This document shows, piece after piece, positions 5,179 to 15,327 of a stretch of DNA of 47,227 bases (the stretch's first letter is position 1; each line of letters opens with the position of its first letter). The DNA lies in NCBI GenBank assembly GCA_016213775.1, contig JACQZR010000133.1, positions 1 through 47,227 on the forward strand, given 5' to 3'. The notes below the pieces were generated by a model, which saw only the letters and a program-made list of their open reading frames with translations, was not told the DNA's origin and did not search any database. The translations under genes were made by a program, and so were the position numbers. The stretch is from Acidobacteriota bacterium (GTDB lineage: Bacteria; Acidobacteriota; Terriglobia; Bryobacterales; Bryobacteraceae).

Positions 5179-7815
5179 TTCGATAGGGTCCACTGACGAG
5201 GCCCGGCGGGCGGGGATATAGCTCGCAATCACCGCTGCCGCGGAAACAATCATTGCGGACGCCACGTAGGAGACCGGGTCTAGCGCTGTCACACCAAACA
5301 GAAGCGAAGAAACCCAGCGCGAAAGCCCGATGGCCGCGGCCAGCCCTGCGACACTGCCGGTGGATGCCAGCAAAATCCCTCGCCGAACGAACAGCCCTTT
5401 CACCTGACTCGGCTGAGCCCCAAGCGCCATCCGAATGCTCACCTCGCGCCGCCGTTGTCCCACTGCGTAGGCAAGCACCCCGTAAACGCCGATGATCGAC
5501 AATGCTAACGCCATTGTTCCTGCGATGCCCAGCAGGATGAACGTGAATGATGTTCGCGCCATGGAGCGCCGGTAAACATCGTTCAGCGTTCGCACCTGCG
5601 TCAAAGGCAGGCTCGGGTTGACGGAGTGGATGGCCGTGGCGACTTCTCTGAGAAACCTTTCGGTGCCTGTCCTGCCGCTTCGAATCGCCAGCGTCAGGCC
5701 ACGGCGGATGGATGGTGGCCGGTCGGGCCGCCACGGGTCGTTCACTCCAGTCCGGAAGTAGACTATCGGAGGAGCCGGCCGGTGAGCCCCGTCGTCATGC
5801 ACGTCCTCGACGACTCCGACCACCTCAAGCCAGATGTCGCCCAAAGCGCCCGGCCGAAGCCGCTTGCCCAGCGCCGTATTGGGTTGGCCCCAGTTCTCGC
5901 GTGCCATGCTCTCCGATACGATCGCGACGAGGCGGCGTTTGAGCAGATCCTCCCAAGTGAAATCCCGGCCGGCCAGTAAACGAGTTCCTTGCGCGGCAAA
6001 CAAGCCTGGAGACACAGACTTGACACGCCGGTTCGGAGGAGGCTGCCCCGGCACGAGCTTGTCTTCGACAGCCACGAGGTTTCCGCTGCGATAGTCCGCA
6101 TCCATCGGCATTCCGGAAGTGAATGCGGCTGCCTGCACACCCGGCAGTCGAGAGACGTTCTCGACTATCTCGGCCTGCATCCGGGCCACGCGCTCCGGTT
6201 CCGGCACCTGCGTTTCCGGAATTGCGATCCGGAGTGTCTGGATCCGCTCCGGCTGTGTGAACCCGGGGTGAACTCCGCGTAGGGCAACGAAGCTGCGTGT
6301 TAGCAACCCGCCCACCACCAGCAGAACCAAGGCAAGCGCAACCTGCGCAATCACCAGTACGTTCTGCGCTCGCAGTTGGTGAAGGCCCATGCTTGCGCCG
6401 CGCGCATTGAGGATCTTGCCGGGGATGCCACACTTGAGAGCGGCGATCAGGCCGAAGAACAGACTTCCGGCGATCGAGCACGCGAGACCAAACGCCAGGG
6501 TCGCCGCATCGACTGAGACTTCGGCCAGTCTGGGAATGGTGGTGAGGCTCTGCGCCGTCAGGATTCGCAACGCGCCGTAAGCAAGAGCCATGCCGAAAGC
6601 GCCACCAAGCAGGCCAAGCATAAGGCTTTCGACGAGCAGTTCTCTGGCGATCCTCCCCCATTCGGCGCCAAGCGCGGCACGAATCGCGAATTCCTGCGTC
6701 CGCGCCTGCGCCCTTACCAGAACCAGGTTCGCTACATTGGCGCAGACAAGCAGGAACACCAGACCGAGCGCTCCCATCAGAACGCCGAGAACCGCGCCAA
6801 TGTCGCCGGTAACGTCCCGCTTCAGCGGGCGCAAATTCGGCTTCACCCGCGCCTGTTCGAAGAACGAGCGCGCGTTCTCCGGGATGACCTTGGTGAGAAC
6901 TCGCGTGCTGTCTTCGTTCGCTAGGCCGATGGTGATGCCCGGCTTCAATCTTGCGATGCCGGAATACGAAAACGGCTCGATGCGCAGGTTCGCCTTGGCG
7001 AAGCGTTGCGGGAGCAGGACGTCGGGCGAAAGATCGAGGAACCGGAAGGTTCGCGGCATCACGCCGATCACCTGGCGTGGAACGAAGTCAACCACAACCA
7101 TTTGTCCAACCATTTGCGTGTCACCGCCGAACCTCCTGAGCCAATACGAGTGAGAGAGGATGACGGTTTCCGCTGTTCCCGGCATGTCATCCTCGATGGA
7201 AAACCGGCGGCCCAAGACCGGCTGAACACCCAAAGCCGGCAGAAGTCCTTGGGTCACGGTGACGGTCTTGATCTGCTCAGGATCGCCGGCGCCGGTCACG
7301 GTTGCTGTGCCCGGCGACCACACACCGAATTCCTGAAACGCCGCCGAGTGCTCCTTCAACGCCGCGTACATTCCGGGCCCGAGACCCATGTCGCTGAATG
7401 TCTCGCCTTGGATCGTGCCTGAGTTGAAGACGCCAACCAGCGACTCGGATTCCGGATACGGGAGCGGACGGATGAGCACAGCGTTCACGAGACTGAAGAT
7501 GGCCGTGTTGGCGCCAATGCCAAGTGCGAGCGAGAGGATCGCAGCCGTGCTGAAGCCCGAGTTAAGCCGGATCATCCGCAGAGCGTGGCGAGCATCCCGC
7601 AGCAGTCCTTCCAGGAAATCCAACGTGTTCATTTGATAGACCTCCTCTCGAATCCATGTCGCGTTACCGAGCTTTTTGCGTGCCGCATCGCGCGCAGCCG
7701 CAGGATGCACACCGCGGGCGATGTACTCCTCCGTAGTGACGTCCAGGTAGAATTCCAGTTCCTCGCGCTGTTCGGTGTCCGCCTTGCCGCGGTGGAAGAA
7801 TCGCCCCCAGTTCAT
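5161..7815 (-). CDS. ADOP-family ABC transporter permease (duplicated MacB/FtsX type)
   Basis: An 884-residue membrane protein of the acidobacterial duplicated orphan permease family. It has the usual N-terminal cytosolic segment (HRGKADTEQREELEFYLD, then YIARGVHPAAARDAARKKLG) followed by two MacB_PCD plus FtsX units. The first starts near residue 85 (SGFSTAAILSLALGIGANTA) with FtsX helices around 340-450. The second begins near 480 (NVLVIAQVALALVLLVVGGLL) and ends with RRREVSIRMALGAQPSQV and a final IPARRASSVDPIESLRVD tail. Length is typical of the family. No ATPase gene lies nearby, as the word orphan implies, so it must borrow one or act as a sensor or mechanotransmitter. The start overlaps the stop of the padR-like gene by four bases, so the two genes are translationally coupled. 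Confidence 0.92.
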   Translation of the reverse strand: MNWGRFFHRGKADTEQREELEFYLDVTTEEYIARGVHPAAARDAARKKLGNATWIREEVYQMNTLDFLEGLLRDARHALRMIRLNSGFSTAAILSLALGIGANTAIFSLVNAVLIRPLPYPESESLVGVFNSGTIQGETFSDMGLGPGMYAALKEHSAAFQEFGVWSPGTATVTGAGDPEQIKTVTVTQGLLPALGVQPVLGRRFSIEDDMPGTAETVILSHSYWLRRFGGDTQMVGQMVVVDFVPRQVIGVMPRTFRFLDLSPDVLLPQRFAKANLRIEPFSYSGIARLKPGITIGLANEDSTRVLTKVIPENARSFFEQARVKPNLRPLKRDVTGDIGAVLGVLMGALGLVFLLVCANVANLVLVRAQARTQEFAIRAALGAEWGRIARELLVESLMLGLLGGAFGMALAYGALRILTAQSLTTIPRLAEVSVDAATLAFGLACSIAGSLFFGLIAALKCGIPGKILNARGASMGLHQLRAQNVLVIAQVALALVLLVVGGLLTRSFVALRGVHPGFTQPERIQTLRIAIPETQVPEPERVARMQAEIVENVSRLPGVQAAAFTSGMPMDADYRSGNLVAVEDKLVPGQPPPNRRVKSVSPGLFAAQGTRLLAGRDFTWEDLLKRRLVAIVSESMARENWGQPNTALGKRLRPGALGDIWLEVVGVVEDVHDDGAHRPAPPIVYFRTGVNDPWRPDRPPSIRRGLTLAIRSGRTGTERFLREVATAIHSVNPSLPLTQVRTLNDVYRRSMARTSFTFILLGIAGTMALALSIIGVYGVLAYAVGQRRREVSIRMALGAQPSQVKGLFVRRGILLASTGSVAGLAAAIGLSRWVSSLLFGVTALDPVSYVASAMIVSAAAVIASYIPARRASSVDPIESLRVD

Positions 7816-8171
7816 GACTGTCCCTCGCGGGCCGGATGCATGATACGGCCAATTGCCTTCACCAACTGCTCCCAGCGGGAGGTTTGTGCCGCCAATTGCT
7901 TTTTGCCTTCGGGAGTGAGCCGATAATACTTCGCTTTCCGGTTATTCTCAGAGGTTCCCCAGAAAGATGCGATCCAGCCCCGATTCTCGAGACGGCGCAA
8001 TGCGGGATAGAGGGAGCCGTGCTCCACTTGCAGCACCTCCTCAGATCCTCTCTCGATGGCATGAGCGATTGTCTGTCCGTGGGCAGGACCAACGACCAGC
8101 GTCCGGAGGACCAGCATGTCCAGTGTGCCCTGGACCATCTCGGATTGGAGAGGCGATTCGCGTCTTGGCAT
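7812..8171 (-). CDS. PadR-family transcriptional regulator
   Basis: A 119-residue winged-helix repressor. The PadR N-terminal domain is complete: VQGTLDMLVLRTL, then HGQTIAHAIERGSEEVLQVEHGSLYPALRRLENRG with the recognition helix and wing, then KAKYYRLTPEGKKQL, and a short C-terminal helix that would give dimer contacts. In Acidobacteria this gene type is the standard partner of ADOP permeases. Here the pair overlaps by four bases, with the regulator upstream, so the regulator most likely controls its own transcript together with the permease. A palindrome 27 bases upstream of the start is a candidate operator. The effector is unknown. Confidence 0.92.
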   Translation of the reverse strand: MPRRESPLQSEMVQGTLDMLVLRTLVVGPAHGQTIAHAIERGSEEVLQVEHGSLYPALRRLENRGWIASFWGTSENNRKAKYYRLTPEGKKQLAAQTSRWEQLVKAIGRIMHPAREGQS

Positions 8172-8309: not shown

Positions 8310-8318
8310 TGTTATACT
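8310..8318 (+). promoter_or_regulatory. Extended -10 promoter of the his operon
   Basis: TG-T-TATACT is a good extended -10 element (TGnTATAAT type). No convincing -35 hexamer exists at 16-18 bases, which extended -10 promoters tolerate. Transcription would begin around 8325-8327, at or just before the ATG of the his leader peptide, so the leader may be translated from a leaderless message. Confidence 0.5.
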
Positions 8319-8326
8319 GGTCATTC

Positions 8327-8401
8327 ATGCTAACGCTCTCCCAGCGGCATCATCACCATCCTCACGCAGGGTCTTGTGTGTGCTACCGGGCTGGGTTCTA
8401 A
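8327..8401 (+). CDS. hisL: his operon leader peptide
   Basis: A 24-codon ORF ending in TAA, with five His codons among residues 8-13 (HHHHPH, codons CAT CAT CAC CAT CCT CAC). It lies directly upstream of hisI and is followed by an intrinsic terminator. Such a His run in front of histidine genes is the signature of a ribosome-sensed attenuator, as in the enteric hisL with its seven His codons; the surrounding sequence here is unrelated. Ribosomes starved for charged tRNA-His would stall at 8348-8365. No Shine-Dalgarno sequence precedes the ATG; the -10 box is so close that translation may start on the very 5' end. It is too short to be picked up by ordinary gene callers. Confidence 0.88.
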   Translation: MLTLSQRHHHHPHAGSCVCYRAGF

Positions 8402-8437
8402 GGCTACGAACCGAAATCTTTGGAGCAACCAAGCCCG
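8387..8437 (+). promoter_or_regulatory. his attenuator: antiterminator pairing
   Basis: CGGGCT-G-GGTT at 8387-8397 can pair with AACC-A-AGCCCG at 8427-8437: ten base pairs with one G/A mismatch. The right side takes the first four bases of the terminator stem, so the two folds exclude each other. The left side covers the last four codons of the leader peptide. A ribosome stalled on the His codons leaves it free, so the antiterminator forms and the operon is read. A ribosome at the stop codon covers it, so the terminator forms. A smaller hairpin GGTTC/GAACC (8394-8398 with 8408-8412) could act as a pause structure. Pairings were worked out by hand. Confidence 0.7.
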
Positions 8438-8460
8438 CCGCGGCTCCGGCGGGTTTTTTT
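8434..8460 (+). terminator. his attenuator terminator
   Basis: Intrinsic terminator with stem CCCGCCG (8434-8440), loop CGGCTC and CGGCGGG (8447-8453), followed immediately by seven T. It lies between the leader-peptide stop and hisI, 17 bases before the hisI ATG, exactly where an attenuator terminator must be. Confidence 0.9.
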
Positions 8461-8477
8461 ATTGTGGACTCTAACTA

Positions 8478-8852
8478 ATGGAACTTGATTTTGCAAAACA
8501 GGACGGGCTCATCGCCGCCGTCATCCAGGACGCCGCCAGTGGCCGTGTGCTCATGCTCGGCTTTATGAACGAAGAAGCCTGGAAGAAGACTCTCGAAACA
8601 GGTTGCGCCGTTTTCTATAGCCGCACCCGCAAGAAGCTCTGGCTCAAAGGGGAAACCTCCGGCCACAAACTCATCGTCAAGGAGATCACCACTGACTGTG
8701 ACCAGGATTCCCTCGTTATCAAAGTCGAGGCCGTTGGCCCCGGCGTTTGCCACAACGGCTATGAAAGCTGCTTCTACCGCCGTTGGGAAGACGGCGCCTG
8801 GGTGGTCACCGATAAACCAACTTACGACCCGGGTCAGGTGTACGGGGGCTGA
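8478..8852 (+). CDS. hisI: Phosphoribosyl-AMP cyclohydrolase
   Basis: Opens the adenine ring of PR-AMP to give ProFAR, the third step of histidine synthesis. The protein has 124 residues, the size of a stand-alone HisI without the HisE domain. The zinc and magnesium site is visible: TTDCDQDSLVIKVE supplies a Cys and the Asp cluster, and CHNGYESCFYR supplies two more Cys. FYSRTRKKLWLKGETSGH is the conserved substrate stretch. First structural gene of the operon, just after the attenuator; three bases separate it from hisG. Confidence 0.96.
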   Translation: MELDFAKQDGLIAAVIQDAASGRVLMLGFMNEEAWKKTLETGCAVFYSRTRKKLWLKGETSGHKLIVKEITTDCDQDSLVIKVEAVGPGVCHNGYESCFYRRWEDGAWVVTDKPTYDPGQVYGG

Positions 8853-8855
8853 GTT

Positions 8856-9725
8856 ATGAAGCTGAAACTGGGAATCCCGAAAGGTAGTCTCGAAACCGCC
8901 ACAGTCGACCTCTTCCGGCGCGCCGGCTTCAACATTACTGTCTCCAGCCGCTCCTATTTTCCCGCCATCGACGATCCGGAAATCGAGTGCATGCTCATCC
9001 GCGCGCAGGAAATGGCGCGTTATGTGGAAGACGGGGTTCTCGACGCAGGACTCACCGGCCTCGACTGGGTGGCCGAAAACGACGCGGACGTCCACAAAGT
9101 CGCTGATCTCATTTACGCCAAGCAGAGTTTCGGCAAGGTGCGCTGGGTACTCGCCGCGCCCGAATCTTCACCGTTCCATTCCGTCAAGGACCTGGAAGGC
9201 AAGATCATCGCCACCGAACTGGTGGGTGCGACCAAAAAGTACCTCGCCAGCCATGGAGTTACAGCAAAGGTGGAATTCAGTTGGGGCGCAACCGAAGTGA
9301 AGCCGCCGGTCCTCGCCGATGCGATTGTCGAAGTTACCGAGACCGGTTCCTCTCTCCGCGCCAATAAACTCCGCATCCTCGACGTGGTGATGGAATCGAA
9401 TACGCAGTTAGTGGCCAACAAAGTCTCCTGGGAGGACGAATGGAAGCGCCACAAACTCGAGGATATCCGCATGCTGCTGGAAGGCGCGATCAACGCCCTC
9501 GGCAAGGTAGGCCTGATGCTCAACGTGAGCAAGGACAATCTCCCTGCGGTTCTCGCGGCTTTGCCGGCTCTCAAGAAGCCCACTATTTCTCATCTGAGTG
9601 ATGACGAGTGGCTTGCCGTGAATACCATTCTCGACGAATCCACCGTCCGCAATATCATTCCCCGTCTGAAAAAGGCAGGCGCTCAGGGAATTGTCGAATA
9701 TCCTTTAAACAAGATAGTAATGTAA
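8856..9725 (+). CDS. hisG: ATP phosphoribosyltransferase, long form
   Basis: First and feedback-controlled step: ATP plus PRPP to PR-ATP. At 289 residues it is the long HisG with a C-terminal ACT-like regulatory domain (about 210-289, ending [12 protein letters not shown]), so it should bind histidine itself and need no HisZ. The catalytic part starts [17 protein letters not shown] and contains the PRPP loop region at [14 protein letters not shown]. It lies between hisI and hisD with only a two-base gap to the latter. Control is therefore double: allosteric on this enzyme and attenuation of the message. Confidence 0.96.
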
Positions 9726-9727
9726 TT

Positions 9728-10972
9728 ATGATTCGAATCCTCGAAGCTAGCCAGGCAACCAAGATCCTCGAACGCCGCACGGCCCGTCTGGAGGAAGCCG
9801 AGCGTATCGTCAGGCCGATCCTCGAGGCGGTGCGCAAGCGCGGCGACAAGGCGCTGGTGGAATACGCCAGGAAACTCGACGGCCTCACGGAGAAAACCGT
9901 CGAAGTCCCGGGCGGCCGCCTCCAACAGGCCGCCGACGATCTCGATCCGCAATTTCGCAGCGCGGTGAAAATCGCTTCGGACAACATCCGCGGCTACGCA
10001 CGGCTCCAGTTGCCTAAGCCGTTCCGGAAAGCGCTCGCACCCGGCATCCGCCTCGGCCAGATCGTTCGCCCGCTTGATTCCGTCGCGGCCTACATTCCCT
10101 CCGGACGCTTCCCGCTGCCCAGCACCTTGATGATGACCGTGATTCCCGCGCAGGTGGCCGGGGTCCCGCATATCAGTGTGGCCTCGCCGAAGCCCAATTG
10201 CGAGATCTACGGCACCGCGGCTTTGCTCGACGTGACCAGGGTATTTCAGATGGGCGGCGCGCACGCCATCGCGGCGTTCGCATTCGGCACCAAGACGGTG
10301 CCCAAAGCCGACCGCATCGTCGGCCCCGGCAACATCTACGTCAGCGCCGCCAAGAGGCTCCTGGCGGGCGAAGTGGGCATCGACTTCGTCGCCGGTCCCA
10401 CTGAAGTGCTCATCATTTCCAATGATGGCGACCCGCGCTGGATCGCCGCCGACATGCTCGCCCAGGCCGAGCACGACGAAGACGCCGCGGCTATCCTGTG
10501 TACGCCTTCCCGCCGGCTGGCCGCCGCGGTCTCGCAGGAGTTGGAGAAACAGATGAAAGACCTGCCCACCGCGAAGATCACGCGCAAATCCATCGAGAAG
10601 AACAGTGCTATCTTTATCACGAATTCGCTCGAACAGGCAGTAGAGATTTCGAACGCCTTCGCGCCCGAGCATCTCGCTATTCCCGAGATGCGCCTGCTCG
10701 ATTCCGTCAAGCACGCGGGCACCGTTTTCGTCGGACCCAACAGCCCGGAAGCCGCCGGTGATTATGCTTCCGGCCCGAGCCACGTTCTTCCCACCAACGG
10801 AGCTGCCCGCCTCCGCGGTGGTCTCTCCGCGGCCGATTTCTGCAAGGTGATCGCGGTGCAGGAGTTGAATGGCGAGGCGCTTCGCCGCTTGGGGCCGTCG
10901 ATTACCACACTGGCGCGCGCCGAGGGGCTGGAGGCGCACGCTCGCAGCGTCGAAGTGCGATTAGGCAAGTGA
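9728..10972 (+). CDS. hisD: Histidinol dehydrogenase
   Basis: Oxidises L-histidinol to L-histidine through histidinal with two NAD; zinc-dependent. The 414-residue protein shows the family signature around VGPGNIYVSAAKRLLAGEVG, the zinc-ligand stretch AQAEHDEDAAAIL with Gln and His, FAPEHLAI with the catalytic Glu-His pair, and the C-terminal GDYASGPSHVLPT. The ATG at 9728 is chosen: it sits two bases after the hisG stop and gives the normal N-terminus (MIRILEASQATKIL); the longer open frame upstream is hisG sequence in another frame. The stop overlaps the hisC GTG start as GTGA. Confidence 0.96.
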   Translation: MIRILEASQATKILERRTARLEEAERIVRPILEAVRKRGDKALVEYARKLDGLTEKTVEVPGGRLQQAADDLDPQFRSAVKIASDNIRGYARLQLPKPFRKALAPGIRLGQIVRPLDSVAAYIPSGRFPLPSTLMMTVIPAQVAGVPHISVASPKPNCEIYGTAALLDVTRVFQMGGAHAIAAFAFGTKTVPKADRIVGPGNIYVSAAKRLLAGEVGIDFVAGPTEVLIISNDGDPRWIAADMLAQAEHDEDAAAILCTPSRRLAAAVSQELEKQMKDLPTAKITRKSIEKNSAIFITNSLEQAVEISNAFAPEHLAIPEMRLLDSVKHAGTVFVGPNSPEAAGDYASGPSHVLPTNGAARLRGGLSAADFCKVIAVQELNGEALRRLGPSITTLARAEGLEAHARSVEVRLGK

Positions 10973-12018
10973 GGCTCCAACCCCGCGATGCCGTGCTCCG
11001 CATGGCTCCCTACTTGCCGCCCTCCGGTGGCCGTACGGGAAAGCTCCGCCTCGACTTCAACGAGAACACCGTCGGCTGCTCGCCGCGCGTGCTCGAATAC
11101 GTCCGCCAACACCTCGATCGCAACATCTTCGCCGTCTATCCCGAATACGTCGAAACGCGCGAAAAGCTATGCGGGTACTTCGGCGTCACGGACGGCCAGC
11201 TCGTTCTCACCAACGGCACCGATGAGGCCATCCAGGTTCTCGTCAACACGTTCCTGGATGACAACGACGAGGTGCTCTTGCTCCAACCCTCGTATGCGAT
11301 GTACCGCTTCTACAGCGAAGTGGCCGGAGCCGCCGTGCACGAAATCCCGTACCACAAGAAGGACCTTGCGTTTCCCCTGGCGGAACTGCTGGCCGCGATC
11401 CGGCCCGAAACACGCGCCATCCTCATCGCGAACCCTAATAACCCGACAGGCACCGGTACGGACATCGCCTCCATCCGCCGTATTCTCGAAGCCGCGCCAC
11501 AAGCCGCGGTCCTGATCGACGAGGCCTACTACGAGTTCTGCGGCATCACCGCGCTGCCCCTGGTTGCCGAATACCCGAACCTCTTCGTCAGCCGGACGTT
11601 TTCCAAAGTCTTTGGCATGGCGGCCATGCGCCTCGGCGTGCTCCTCACGCAAGCGGAAAACGGCGGATTCCTTCGCAAGGCGCAATCGCCCTACAGCGTC
11701 AATCTGCTCGCCGCCATCGCCGTCCGTGCGGCCATCGAAGACACTGAATACGTCCAGTCGTACGTCGAGGAAGTGCTGCAAGCGCGGGACCTCGTCTATG
11801 AGGGACTCGGCCGCATGGGGATTCACTTCTACATCAGCCAGGGCAACTTTGTTCTCTTTGAATGCGGCGACCGCGCCATCGAAATCCGTGACGGTCTCCG
11901 CGCCGCGGGCGTGCTCGTCCGCGACCGCAGCTACGAAATCGCCGGCTGCGTCCGCGTCACTATCGGCACTCGGGATCAGTCGCGCCGGTTCCTCAAAGAA
12001 CTCGAGAGGATCTGGTGA
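10969..12018 (+). CDS. hisC: Histidinol-phosphate aminotransferase
   Basis: PLP enzyme converting imidazole-acetol phosphate plus glutamate to histidinol phosphate. 349 residues, class I/II aminotransferase fold. Visible are NPNNPTGTGTDIAS, the Asp-Tyr pair LIDEAYYEF that holds the PLP ring nitrogen, and SRTFSKVFGMAAMRLG, whose Lys forms the Schiff base. The GTG start overlaps the hisD stop by four bases (GTGA), and the stop overlaps the ATG of the next gene (TGATG), so it is translationally coupled on both sides. Confidence 0.95.
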   Translation: MRLQPRDAVLRMAPYLPPSGGRTGKLRLDFNENTVGCSPRVLEYVRQHLDRNIFAVYPEYVETREKLCGYFGVTDGQLVLTNGTDEAIQVLVNTFLDDNDEVLLLQPSYAMYRFYSEVAGAAVHEIPYHKKDLAFPLAELLAAIRPETRAILIANPNNPTGTGTDIASIRRILEAAPQAAVLIDEAYYEFCGITALPLVAEYPNLFVSRTFSKVFGMAAMRLGVLLTQAENGGFLRKAQSPYSVNLLAAIAVRAAIEDTEYVQSYVEEVLQARDLVYEGLGRMGIHFYISQGNFVLFECGDRAIEIRDGLRAAGVLVRDRSYEIAGCVRVTIGTRDQSRRFLKELERIW

Positions 12019-12704
12019 TGCGGCCTCTGCTCATGTTCGATATGGACGGTGTGCTCGTCGAAGTCACCGAATCCTATCGCGAGACCATTCGCCAGACGGT
12101 TACGCATTTCACGGGCAAGCCCGTCACCTACGACGACATTCAGGCTTACAAGAACGCCGGCGGTTGGAACAACGATTGGAAGCTCTCGCAGAAGATGGCT
12201 GCCGACCTCGGCGTCGCAGTCGATTACGACACGGTCATCGGTCACTTCCAGAAGATCTTCATCGGCGACGGTGACAACGGACTGATTCATCGCGAGCGCT
12301 GGATCGCCCGACCGGGTGTGTTGGAGAGCCTTGGCGAGGCCTTCGACTTCGGCGTCTACACCGGCCGCGACCGTTTCGAAGCGATGATCACCCTCAACCG
12401 TTCCGCCGGACTCATCCGCTTCCACCCGATTCTCACAGCCAACGACGTTACCCACGGCAAGCCGCACCCCGAAGGTCTGCTGAAGGTCCAGGCCATGTAC
12501 CCGGGCCGCGCGCTTTATTACATCGGCGACACGGTGGATGATGCTCGCTGCGCCCGTGCCGCCGGCGTCCCTTTCATCGGCGTGGCCAGCCAGGCGCATT
12601 CCACACGCGCCACGCTGCTCGATCTGTTCGCCCGCGAAAACGCCGCCGCTGTGCTCGACGACATCAACCAATTGGAGAACTACCTTGCGCAAGGCCGGAG
12701 TTGA
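12018..12704 (+). CDS. HAD-superfamily phosphatase in the his operon; candidate histidinol-phosphatase
   Basis: A 228-residue HAD hydrolase of subfamily IA. Motif I is [10 protein letters not shown] near residue 7 with the nucleophile Asp and the acid/base Asp; motif II is VYTGRDR; motif III is the Lys of GKPHPEGLL; motif IV is [12 protein letters not shown]. The helical cap lies between about residues 15 and 95. It is embedded between hisC and hisB, overlapping both, and no other histidinol-phosphate phosphatase (HisN, or a HisB N-terminal domain) is in the window, so that role is the natural inference. HAD proteins of this kind are known next to or fused with imidazoleglycerol-phosphate dehydratase in some lineages, from memory. 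An alternative GTG at 12015 adds one residue only. Confidence 0.8.
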
Positions 12705-13272
12705 ACGCAACACAAAGGAAACGTCCATCATTGGCAGCCTCACCATTGAAGGCCGCGGCCGCTACGACATCCGCACCGGAATCCGGTTCCTCGATCACAT
12801 GCTCGAGTTGTTCACCAAACACGGCGGCTTCGATTTGAAAATCCATGCCTCCGGCGACCTCGATGTGGATCAGCATCATACGGTGGAAGACTGCGGCATC
12901 GTGATGGGCCAGCTTTTCGCGCAAGCGCTTGACGACCGCAAGGGCATCAACCGTGCCGGCTACTTCATTCTGCCCATGGATGAAACGCTAGCCATCGTTG
13001 CCGTCGACCTCGGCGGACGTCCCGCACTGGTTTATCGCGATCTGGTGAAGGTCCGCATGGTAGGTGACCTCCAGGTGGAATTGCTGTACGATTTCTTCGA
13101 CGGCTTTGTGCATCACTGCGGCGCCAACCTGCACACCAAGGTGATGTATGGACGCTCCAGCCATCACAAGATTGAAGCGGTGTTCAAATGTTGGGCGCGG
13201 GCGATGAAATACGCCTGTTCCAAGGACGCGCGGTTGAAGGATCAACTGCCGTCCACCAAGGGGCTACTATGA
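12685..13272 (+). CDS. hisB: Imidazoleglycerol-phosphate dehydratase
   Basis: Dehydrates IGP to imidazole-acetol phosphate using two manganese ions. The monofunctional 195-residue form shows the duplicated metal motif: [17 protein letters not shown] plus [12 protein letters not shown] in the first half and the matching [11 protein letters not shown] and [10 protein letters not shown] in the second. A TTG start at 12685 is chosen because GGAG stands 7 bases upstream and the protein then begins [14 protein letters not shown], the usual HisB N-terminus. An ATG at 12538 in the same frame would add 49 residues of HAD-frame sequence. It overlaps the HAD gene by 20 bases and hisH by four. Confidence 0.94.
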
Positions 13273-13862
13273 TCGGCATCATCGACTACGGGGCGGGGAA
13301 CCTGCGCAGCGTGCAAAACACGCTCGCCGAAATCGGCGCGGCCTACCAGCTTGTTCATACCCCTGGCCAGTTGCGGCACGCCTCCAAGGTGGTTCTGCCT
13401 GGCGTCGGCCACTTCGGCCAGATGATGCGCGCCCTGGAGATGATGGAAATGCGCGACCCCATCAAACGGTGCATCGGACAAGGCGTTCCGTTCCTCGGCA
13501 TCTGCCTCGGTATGCAGGCCTTCTTTGAACGCAGTGAAGAGGCCCCGGAACTGGAAGGTTTCAACCTGCTACCCGGCGTCGTCAAGCGGTTCAACGGCAA
13601 TTTGCGCGTACCCCACATGGGCTGGAATGAGATCGTCCCGCGTCCAGGCACATCTTTGCTCAACAATCTCGGCCCCAGGCCGTATCTCTATTTCGCTCAC
13701 AGCTACTATGGCCCGCTGTGTCCGGCTACCGCCGCCACCTGTGAGTACGGCCATCTCTACACTGCAGTGGTGGAGGCCGCGAACCTGTTCGGCGTCCAGT
13801 TCCATCCGGAGAAATCGGGCGCGCTCGGACTCCGCATCGTGAAGAATTTCGTGGACCTCTAA
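13269..13862 (+). CDS. hisH: Imidazole glycerol phosphate synthase, glutaminase subunit
   Basis: Class I glutamine amidotransferase that feeds ammonia to HisF. 197 residues beginning [16 protein letters not shown]. The triad is Cys79 in GICLGMQ, His179 and Glu181 in QFHPEKSG. The oxyanion strand PGVGHFG is present. The ATG at 13269 overlaps the hisB TGA as ATGA; a longer frame from 13188 is hisB sequence read out of frame. Two bases separate it from hisF, the partner of the heterodimer. Confidence 0.95.
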
Positions 13863-13864
13863 AC

Positions 13865-14629
13865 ATGCTGGCTAAACGCATCATTCCCTGTCTGGACGTC
13901 ACTGCGGGCCGCGTGGTGAAGGGAGTCAATTTCGTCAACCTCCGCGACGCGGGCGATCCGGTGGAGTTGGCCGCGCGCTATAACGATCAGTGCGCCGATG
14001 AAGTGGTGTTCCTCGATATCACCGCATCGTCCGATCATCGCGACACCATGGCAGATGTTGTCGCCCGCACCGCACGCCGCGTCTTCATCCCTCTCACTGT
14101 CGGAGGCGGCATCCGCACCGTCGCCGACGGCCGCAAGATTCTGCTCTCCGGCGCGGACAAGGTGAGCGTCAACACCGCAGCCGTTCGCCGGCCTGACCTC
14201 ATCTCCGAGCTCAGCGAAGAGTTCGGCGCCCAGGCGGTGGTGCTCGCTATCGACGCGCGCAAGCGTCCCGATGGCGGATGGAACGTCTACACGCACGGCG
14301 GCCGTACCGATGAAGGCATCGACGCCGTGGAATGGGCCGCCCGTGGCGAGGAGTTGGGCGCCGGCGAAATCCTGCTCACCTCCATGGACACCGATGGCGT
14401 CCAGACCGGCTTTGACTGCGCCCTCACTTCGGCCGTATCCCGCGCCACGCGCATTCCCATCATCGCCAGCGGCGGGGCGGGGAAGCCCGAACATTTTCTT
14501 GAGGTCCTGACCACCGGCGAGGCTGACGCCGCGCTCGCCGCGTCGATATTCCACTACGGCACTTACACTGTCAATGAACTCAAGGAGTATCTCGATTGGA
14601 ACGGCGTACCGGTAAGGAAACTGGCTTGA
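13865..14629 (+). CDS. hisF: Imidazole glycerol phosphate synthase, cyclase subunit
   Basis: TIM barrel of 254 residues that turns PRFAR plus ammonia into IGP and AICAR. The catalytic Asp11 is in [16 protein letters not shown], and the second catalytic Asp is in [13 protein letters not shown]. Phosphate-binding loops VGGGIR and [11 protein letters not shown] mark the two half-barrels. Stands directly behind hisH and ahead of hisA, its paralog, with which it overlaps by four bases (TTGA). Confidence 0.96.
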
Positions 14630-15327
14630 TTATCCCTTGTATTGATTTGATGGACGGCAAGGTCGTTCAGTTAGTCCGGGGCCGCGATAAGGCTCTCGAA
14701 GGCGGCACTGTGGACCAGATGCTCCACCTGTTCGCGGACTTCCCCGTGATTCAGGTGATCGACCTCGACGCAGCCATCGGACGCGGCGCAAATGACTCAC
14801 TCGTTGAGTATGTCGCCGGCAAAGCGGCCACCCGCGTCGGCGGCGGTGTGCGCGATGCCGAACGCGCCCGCAAACTGGTCTCCCAGGGCGCGCACAAAGT
14901 GATCGTCGGCACCGCGGCGTTCGCTTCACGCGGCATCAACCGCCCGCTGCTCGAAGAGATCGCCGCGGCCGTTGGCTCTGACAGGATCTTCATTGCACTC
15001 GACAGCCAGAACGGCCGGATCGTAGTGAAAGGCTGGCGCGAAGCCACCAATTTGACTGCCGAAGAAGTGATCCGCGACCTGGAGCCGTACTGCGGCGGCT
15101 TCCTCTGCACTTACGTCGACAAGGAAGGCATGATGGAGGGGACCGACCTCGAGTGGTTCGGCCGCCTTCGCGCGGCAACGGGCCATGCCATCACCGCTGC
15201 CGGCGGCATCACCACGTACGACGATATTCGCGCTCTGCAAGCCATGAACATCGACGCGGCGCTTGGCATGGCGATCTACACCGGCCGTCTCGATTTGTCC
15301 GAGCTTGCGGAAATGAATCAGGCTTGA
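14626..15327 (+). CDS. hisA: ProFAR isomerase
   Basis: Amadori isomerase converting ProFAR to PRFAR. Half-barrel repeats give a 233-residue TIM barrel. Catalytic Asp is in [15 protein letters not shown] and the second in [14 protein letters not shown]; phosphate loops are [11 protein letters not shown] and [10 protein letters not shown]. The TTG start at 14626 is chosen: it overlaps the hisF stop, has AAGGAA 6 bases upstream and gives the family's usual N-terminus (xIIPxIDLxDGK). The upstream TTG at 14596 would add ten residues read out of hisF. It is the last gene of the operon. A 379-base stretch of it (14788-15166) recurs at 19941-20319. Confidence 0.95.

Follow-up and report, generated by a model that had tools for sequence, protein, structure and literature searches.

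A his operon that is preceded by a short open reading frame with a run of His codons raises the question of whether its transcription is governed by the ribosome that reads this frame. Such a locus was found in the window, which denotes here the whole stretch of 47,227 nucleotides analysed, from a member of the Acidobacteriota. The element is very probably an attenuator of his operon transcription that is operated by a ribosome on a leaderless leader ORF and senses the charging of tRNA-His. Judged from its sequence, this switch most likely lets the his genes be read only when histidine is short. The features are collected in Table 1.

Table 1. Features of the his leader region and operon in the window
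Feature	Position	Strand	Remarks
Extended -10 element TGTTATACT	8310..8318	+	TGn 8310-8312, hexamer 8313-8318
Leader peptide ORF MLTLSQRHHHHPHAGSCVCYRAGF	8327..8401	+	24 codons and stop (8399-8401); inferred to be leaderless
Strand 1 (CCCAGC)	8340..8345	+	can pair with 8390-8395 (GCTGGG); weakest part
His sensing codons HHHHPH	8348..8365	+	His codons 8348-8359 and 8363-8365
Strand 2, antiterminator left arm	8387..8397	+	inside the last leader codons
Strand 3, antiterminator right arm	8427..8437	+	overlaps terminator 5' arm 8432-8440
Intrinsic terminator	8432..8460	+	5' arm 8432-8440, loop, 3' arm 8447-8455, T run 8454-8460
hisI (phosphoribosyl-AMP cyclohydrolase), first structural gene	8478..8852	+	PF01502, E 2.4e-32
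hisG, hisD, hisC, HAD phosphatase-like gene, hisB, hisH, hisF, hisA-like ORF	8856..15327	+	hisA-like ORF named by eye

The host genome has a size of 10.96 Mb. The nearest relatives of its HisI come from MAGs with the title Candidatus Solibacter usitatus (82% identity), followed by MAGs titled Bryobacterales or Bryobacteraceae (77%), which bears out the acidobacterial origin proposed earlier from the DNA letters. The gene order behind the attenuator is hisIGDC-HAD-hisBHFA. The HAD hydrolase between hisC and hisB (12015-12701) has its best NCBIfam match to TIGR01548 with 119.2 bits, where the cut-off is 140.2, and is a candidate histidinol-phosphatase.

Leader ORFs with His codons in relatives

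The 24-codon ORF with five His codons in six lies where the sequence-only reading had placed it. A short ORF with at least four His in seven codons was found upstream of hisI in 117 of 129 regions, and in none of the 129 reverse complements or the 129 shuffled sequences. The regions comprise 127 from the GTDB family of the window, the window included, and two from outside it (L211 and L212). Among the 140 family genomes with a match, 30 were included as loci, 97 more were fetched, and 13 were omitted without a fixed rule, some of them contig ends or partial matches. The dense His ORF is absent in 12 of the 129 regions, one of which (L110) is incomplete. The leader peptides have a length of 14 to 26 aa in 121 of 122 leaders, and the remaining one, of 41 aa, is a spurious ORF in L162. 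The tests on 117 sequences were made after removal of this ORF and of four leaders in which no terminator had been detected. When the first 80 relatives are sorted by title, 29 of the 32 loci L004 to L035, all acidobacterial except L031, reach four His in seven codons; none of the 48 loci from other groups (L036 to L083) does, and two reach three.

The leaders also occur in other families of Acidobacteriota. Upstream of hisI, the His ORF was found in 34 of 40 regions (0/40 in each of two controls). These regions were picked by hand after the phylum had been scanned with our covariance model R1, 15 with an R1 match directly upstream and 25 without. Six regions lack the His ORF, and in three of them (L270, L271, L274) a HisF-like coding sequence extends to hisI, by eye. 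Among hisG regions from 39 genomes of other families, 8 of 40 possess the His ORF and none of 38 controls does; one region is just 82 nt long, hisG need not head the operon in all 40, and one of the eight leaders (L309) has a doubtful TTG start. The leader thus stands at operon heads in many families, yet the 32 hisG regions without it indicate that it is not universal. Earlier, the regions before hisI and hisG of Acidobacteriota had been named as the place to search for leader ORFs with His runs, and conservation of the run and of the alternative pairing in relatives had been named as one point on which the idea would stand or fall. The idea passed on the His run with the counts above, and on the pairing with the coevolving arms described below.

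Model R1 found one significant match in the genome of the window, which is the window itself; two others had E values of 0.59 and 0.66. In 297 genomes of the phylum it matched in 63, and 25 matches lie directly upstream of hisI by eye, while many of the remaining ones cover the terminator end alone. The R1 match at L228 has an E value of 4.4e-6 and yet represents an ordinary terminator behind a transporter gene, which calls for caution with models dominated by a terminator. That GC-rich terminators of like shape exist elsewhere, as L228 illustrates, could suggest that the window holds a fortuitous His-rich ORF beside the ordinary terminator of the upstream gene. We regard this as practically negligible. 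The gene before the leader (7812-8171, minus strand) is divergent, and the terminator at 8432-8460 therefore serves the leader transcript; moreover, the His ORF, the promoter spacing and the arms are conserved jointly before his operons. A chance ORF was ruled out by its conservation (117/129 and 34/40) against zero in the controls.

The His run is conserved as codons. The 117 leaders contain 655 CAY triplets in frame, against 29 and 70 in the other two frames, and the in-frame ones are divided into 397 CAT and 258 CAC. This excess with both codons in use indicates that His is selected as codons and not as letters. It speaks against non-translational control by a T-box, a metabolite-binding RNA or a repressor with the ORF as a relic, as does the absence from the window of any Rfam family at gathering score. 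Such control is extremely unlikely, in spite of two loci, L145 and L162, that keep the -10 box and the terminator without the His ORF.

Several individual loci deserve mention. L145 and L162 come from two genomes of one genus, and a gap of some tens of bases stands in place of the leader ORF, which may mean that the sensor was lost naturally or that the switch is run differently. Five other family members (L156, L193, L202, L020 and L025) have a -10-like box and no His run; in L193 an ATG close behind the box opens an ORF without His run. L211 and L212 carry a family-like hisI and leader in genomes (G423 and G366) assigned to other families, by transfer or contamination. The contig of L031 is titled Bordetella parapertussis, but its hisI is 67% identical to that of the window and its His leader resembles the Bryobacterales locus L019; it is probably a mislabelled MAG.

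Promoter and start codon of the leader

The extended -10 box reported at the head of the locus is present. Its TG is common in the family, with T in 92% and G in 97% of leaders aligned on the hexamer. Only 8 nt separate the hexamer from the ATG at 8327, so that there is hardly space for a Shine-Dalgarno site; this spacing and the possible helix of strands 1 and 2 go beyond the sequence-only reading. A consensus scan found no -35/-10 promoter at the window leader; note that extended -10 promoters are not scored by such a scan. Transcription usually starts 6-8 nt behind a -10 box. With the observed spacing, the RNA would have its 5' end on the AUG or a few bases upstream, and the leader is probably translated leaderless, which we state with slightly less confidence than the class of mechanism. 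Leaderless genes were predicted in all three acidobacterial genomes covered by PMC3160421, with a mean of 13.3%.

The spacing is fixed across the family. A TAnnnT box lies 4-12 nt upstream of the ATG in 111 of 116 family leaders, against 16 of 580 in a shifted control, with a spacing of 8 nt in 61 and of 9 nt in 33 leaders. For these counts the in-frame ATG nearest to the His run was chosen without a bonus for the -10 box; earlier counts of 115/117 and 32/34 were inflated by start codons chosen with such a bonus. Among family leaders with a single in-frame ATG, 87 of 89 have the box at this distance. The same arrangement was found in 28 of 32 leaders of other Acidobacteriota families (control 7/159), and 24 of these 28 boxes are preceded at the proper distance by a -35 box of TTGNN type, which is TTGAC in 22 cases (control 3/196). 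These counts weigh against the reading that the attenuator is the same and its leader ordinary, with a start further upstream and the TGnTATACT near the ATG being coincidental or a second start. That reading is favoured by 7 of the 117 leaders, which have an SD-like tetramer between positions -14 and -5 (ten bases), and by the lack of a box at leaderless spacing in 5 of 116 family leaders and in 5 of 8 hisG leaders (it is present in L307, L308 and L310). On balance, we consider an ordinary leader unlikely and a leaderless one probable.

Leaders of the window's family possess TGnTATACT without an evident -35 box, and those of other families a TTGAC-type -35 with a weaker -10. In sequence, this amounts to a change of promoter type at a single site across a lineage. 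The fused layout itself is TGnTATACT, 8-9 nt and ATG inside the family, and a TTGAC-type -35, TAnnnT, 8-10 nt and ATG in most of the leaders checked outside it. It is quite possible, and we propose it tentatively, that they all belong to one phylum-wide and probably ancestral his attenuator of Acidobacteriota, a leaderless family of its own with the promoter fused to the start codon, which moved with the operon head between hisG and hisI. This proposal is weakened by the five of eight hisG leaders without such a box. If true, the fusion of promoter and start lets a ribosome that initiates at the 5' terminus of the growing transcript read the charging of tRNA-His.

The pattern TGNTATAMTN{7,10}ATG occurs eight times in the genome of the window, and once in the backwards control. 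Apart from the site in the window, four of these sites stand before longer ORFs (149-428 codons), among which an ABC ATPase and an Rrf2-like regulator were recognised by eye. An 87-codon ORF follows another site, and the last two sites precede ORFs of 20 and 36 codons with no visible amino-acid run. Scanning one TrpE locus and six TPP-enzyme loci, with starts limited to those a short way behind a TAnnnT box, revealed no leader with an amino-acid run.

Terminator, antiterminator and the proposed switch

The 7-bp terminator with its T7 tail (8454-8460) was found as claimed. Its core has seven G-C pairs (8434-8440 with 8447-8453), and ten pairs are formed with the G-U and A-U extension. A script detected a terminator between the leader ORF and the first gene in 118 of 122 leaders. 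The helix is nearly invariant and gave no covariation signal in an alignment of 42 sequences. As a whole, the window leader folds no better than its own shuffles (z -0.22).

The competing antiterminator of 10 bp could likewise be reproduced. Strands 2 and 3 form 10 of 11 pairs with G8393 and A8431 mismatched, and the left half is covered by the last four leader codons (R-A-G-F, 8387-8398), as had been stated. Arm duplex energies over 117 sequences were -20.0 kcal/mol for cognate, -18.7 for swapped and -13.4 for shuffled arms. The true partner beats the median foreign partner in 82 of 117 leaders for strands 2:3 and in 90 of 117 for strands 1:2, against 63 of 117 for the control 1:3; foreign partners with a similarity of at least 0.75 were left out and relatedness is thus controlled roughly, so these counts are not probabilities. 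In alignment A1, which was picked by hand from easily aligned leaders by preference and contains the window and 41 of 73 non-redundant references, 79.9% of the antiterminator cells are paired, against 40-52% when slid and 76.4% from composition alone in pair shuffles. The covariation score was 0.155 versus 0.112, a value reached by 4 of 500 shuffles; two of the five measures, the number of pairs with both sides changed and the number of pair types, were not unusual (reached by 223 and 94 of 500 shuffles). Columns 87:130 display GC 11 times, UA 7, CG 3, GU 3 and UG once, with 17 unpaired. Taken as sequence evidence, these results indicate that the antiterminator arms coevolve. These tests replaced an approach in which the left arm was taken from the longest uninterrupted helix and which was rejected as it often chose other stretches (32 of 117 above the 95% null and 17 above 99%).

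The left arm shows how RNA and peptide are related. In 89 of 117 leaders the stop codon has an exact CGGGY core in its vicinity, and the other 28 lack it. The core falls in frame 0 in 61 leaders, in frame 1 in 9 and in frame 2 in 11, and 8 have it at the stop codon or behind it; most often (59/89) it is placed 15 nt ahead of the end of this codon. The arm is read in all three frames and is therefore selected as RNA, and peptide ends such as RRAGF, RRALF, GGRSLF and ATG are best read as a shadow of it. Outside the His codons the leader peptide varies in sequence and length. Both observations, the variable peptide and a C-terminal motif that follows the RNA arm through changing frames, make it very unlikely that the leader acts mainly in trans, with the terminated short RNA or the His-rich peptide as the product, although the leaderless trpL attenuator of Sinorhizobium meliloti has an RNA and a peptide that act in trans (PMC7298713). 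A trans role in addition to attenuation may exist and is compatible with the peptide variability. For attenuation itself, the anatomy of the element, its conservation, the selection of His codons, the selection and coevolution of the arms, and the fixed spacing from -10 box to ATG are directly supported.

The transcription start, translation, stalling and regulation are what we infer from the DNA. RNA polymerase would begin at the AUG or a few nucleotides before it, and a ribosome would bind the 5'-terminal AUG. When charged tRNA-His is scarce, the ribosome would stall on the His codons, where it would mask strand 1 and leave strand 2 free. Strand 2 would then pair with strand 3 before strand 4 is synthesized, the terminator would come late, and the his genes would be transcribed. 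With plentiful histidine, a ribosome at the stop codon would cover strand 2, strands 3 and 4 would pair, and transcription would end before hisI. If the leader is not translated, a helix of strands 1 and 2 may cause termination.

The switch was modelled on 117 sequences with a ribosome that covers 13 nt from the first base of the A-site codon, a choice of ours based on the footprint of a ribosome on RNA. Before strand 4 is made, the predicted probability of 3:2 pairing has a mean of 0.86 for a ribosome at the first His codon, where it exceeds 0.5 in 114 of 117 leaders, and a mean of 0.78 for a ribosome at the last codon of the His cluster; for a ribosome at the stop codon it exceeds 0.5 in none of 117. 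With strand 4 present, equilibrium favours the terminator in all ribosome states (medians 0.97-1.0; window 0.97-1.0; means 0.74-0.98, the minimum being that for a ribosome on the first His codon). The switch must thus work kinetically, by the order of synthesis. In free RNA, 2:3 pairing exceeds 0.5 in 78 of 117 leaders, and the 1:2 helix has a low predicted occupancy with a mean of 0.21 and a value of 0.003 in the window. Termination in the absence of translation is therefore poorly supported, and our confidence in a role of the 1:2 helix is low.

Comparison with known systems

The enteric his operon begins with hisG, and its hisL is led by a Shine-Dalgarno site. The sequence-only reading had ascribed the logic of hisL to the window, and this is supported by a His ORF, a terminator and a competing antiterminator that are conserved before his operons. 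Like the enteric type in Rfam RF00514 (His_leader), the window has a leader ORF with His codons and an antiterminator/terminator pair before a his operon; it differs in the start codon directly behind the -10 box and in the operon that begins with hisI. Membership in RF00514 was rejected, with 27.4 bits versus a gathering score of 49. The leader peptide (8327-8398) matched no Pfam or NCBIfam family at E up to 1, and both results fit the earlier remark that it is unrelated to the enteric peptide.

Ribosome-mediated his attenuation is classical in Proteobacteria and was predicted in Firmicutes too. The predicted attenuators of the Bacillus cereus group, Erysipelotrichales and others have 3-5 consecutive His codons with a terminator and an antiterminator (PMC9413887, PMC2965389). 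They belong to another phylum than the window, and leaderlessness is not mentioned for them in the portions consulted of these two papers; the string "acidobacteri" has no occurrence in the main text of PMC9413887. Within the literature searched, which includes portions of PMC4833913 and PMC1262725, no his attenuator of Acidobacteria was found, and an earlier mention is possible. The trpL of Sinorhizobium meliloti has a leaderless leader ORF, with an RNA that starts with the ATG, and a terminator/antiterminator switch (PMC7298713). It resembles the window in the switch and probably in the leaderless ORF, and differs in the sensing of tryptophan and its place in the Alphaproteobacteria.

With more than 100 sequences, the leaders described here offer natural material for studying the timing of leaderless initiation versus transcription in attenuation. 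They are also a way into the regulation of soil bacteria that have been little studied, and the element could be modelled for Rfam. The kind of control is known, the lineage and the sequence family are apparently undescribed, and the distinctive trait, set beside the systems above, appears to be the conserved and probably leaderless form.
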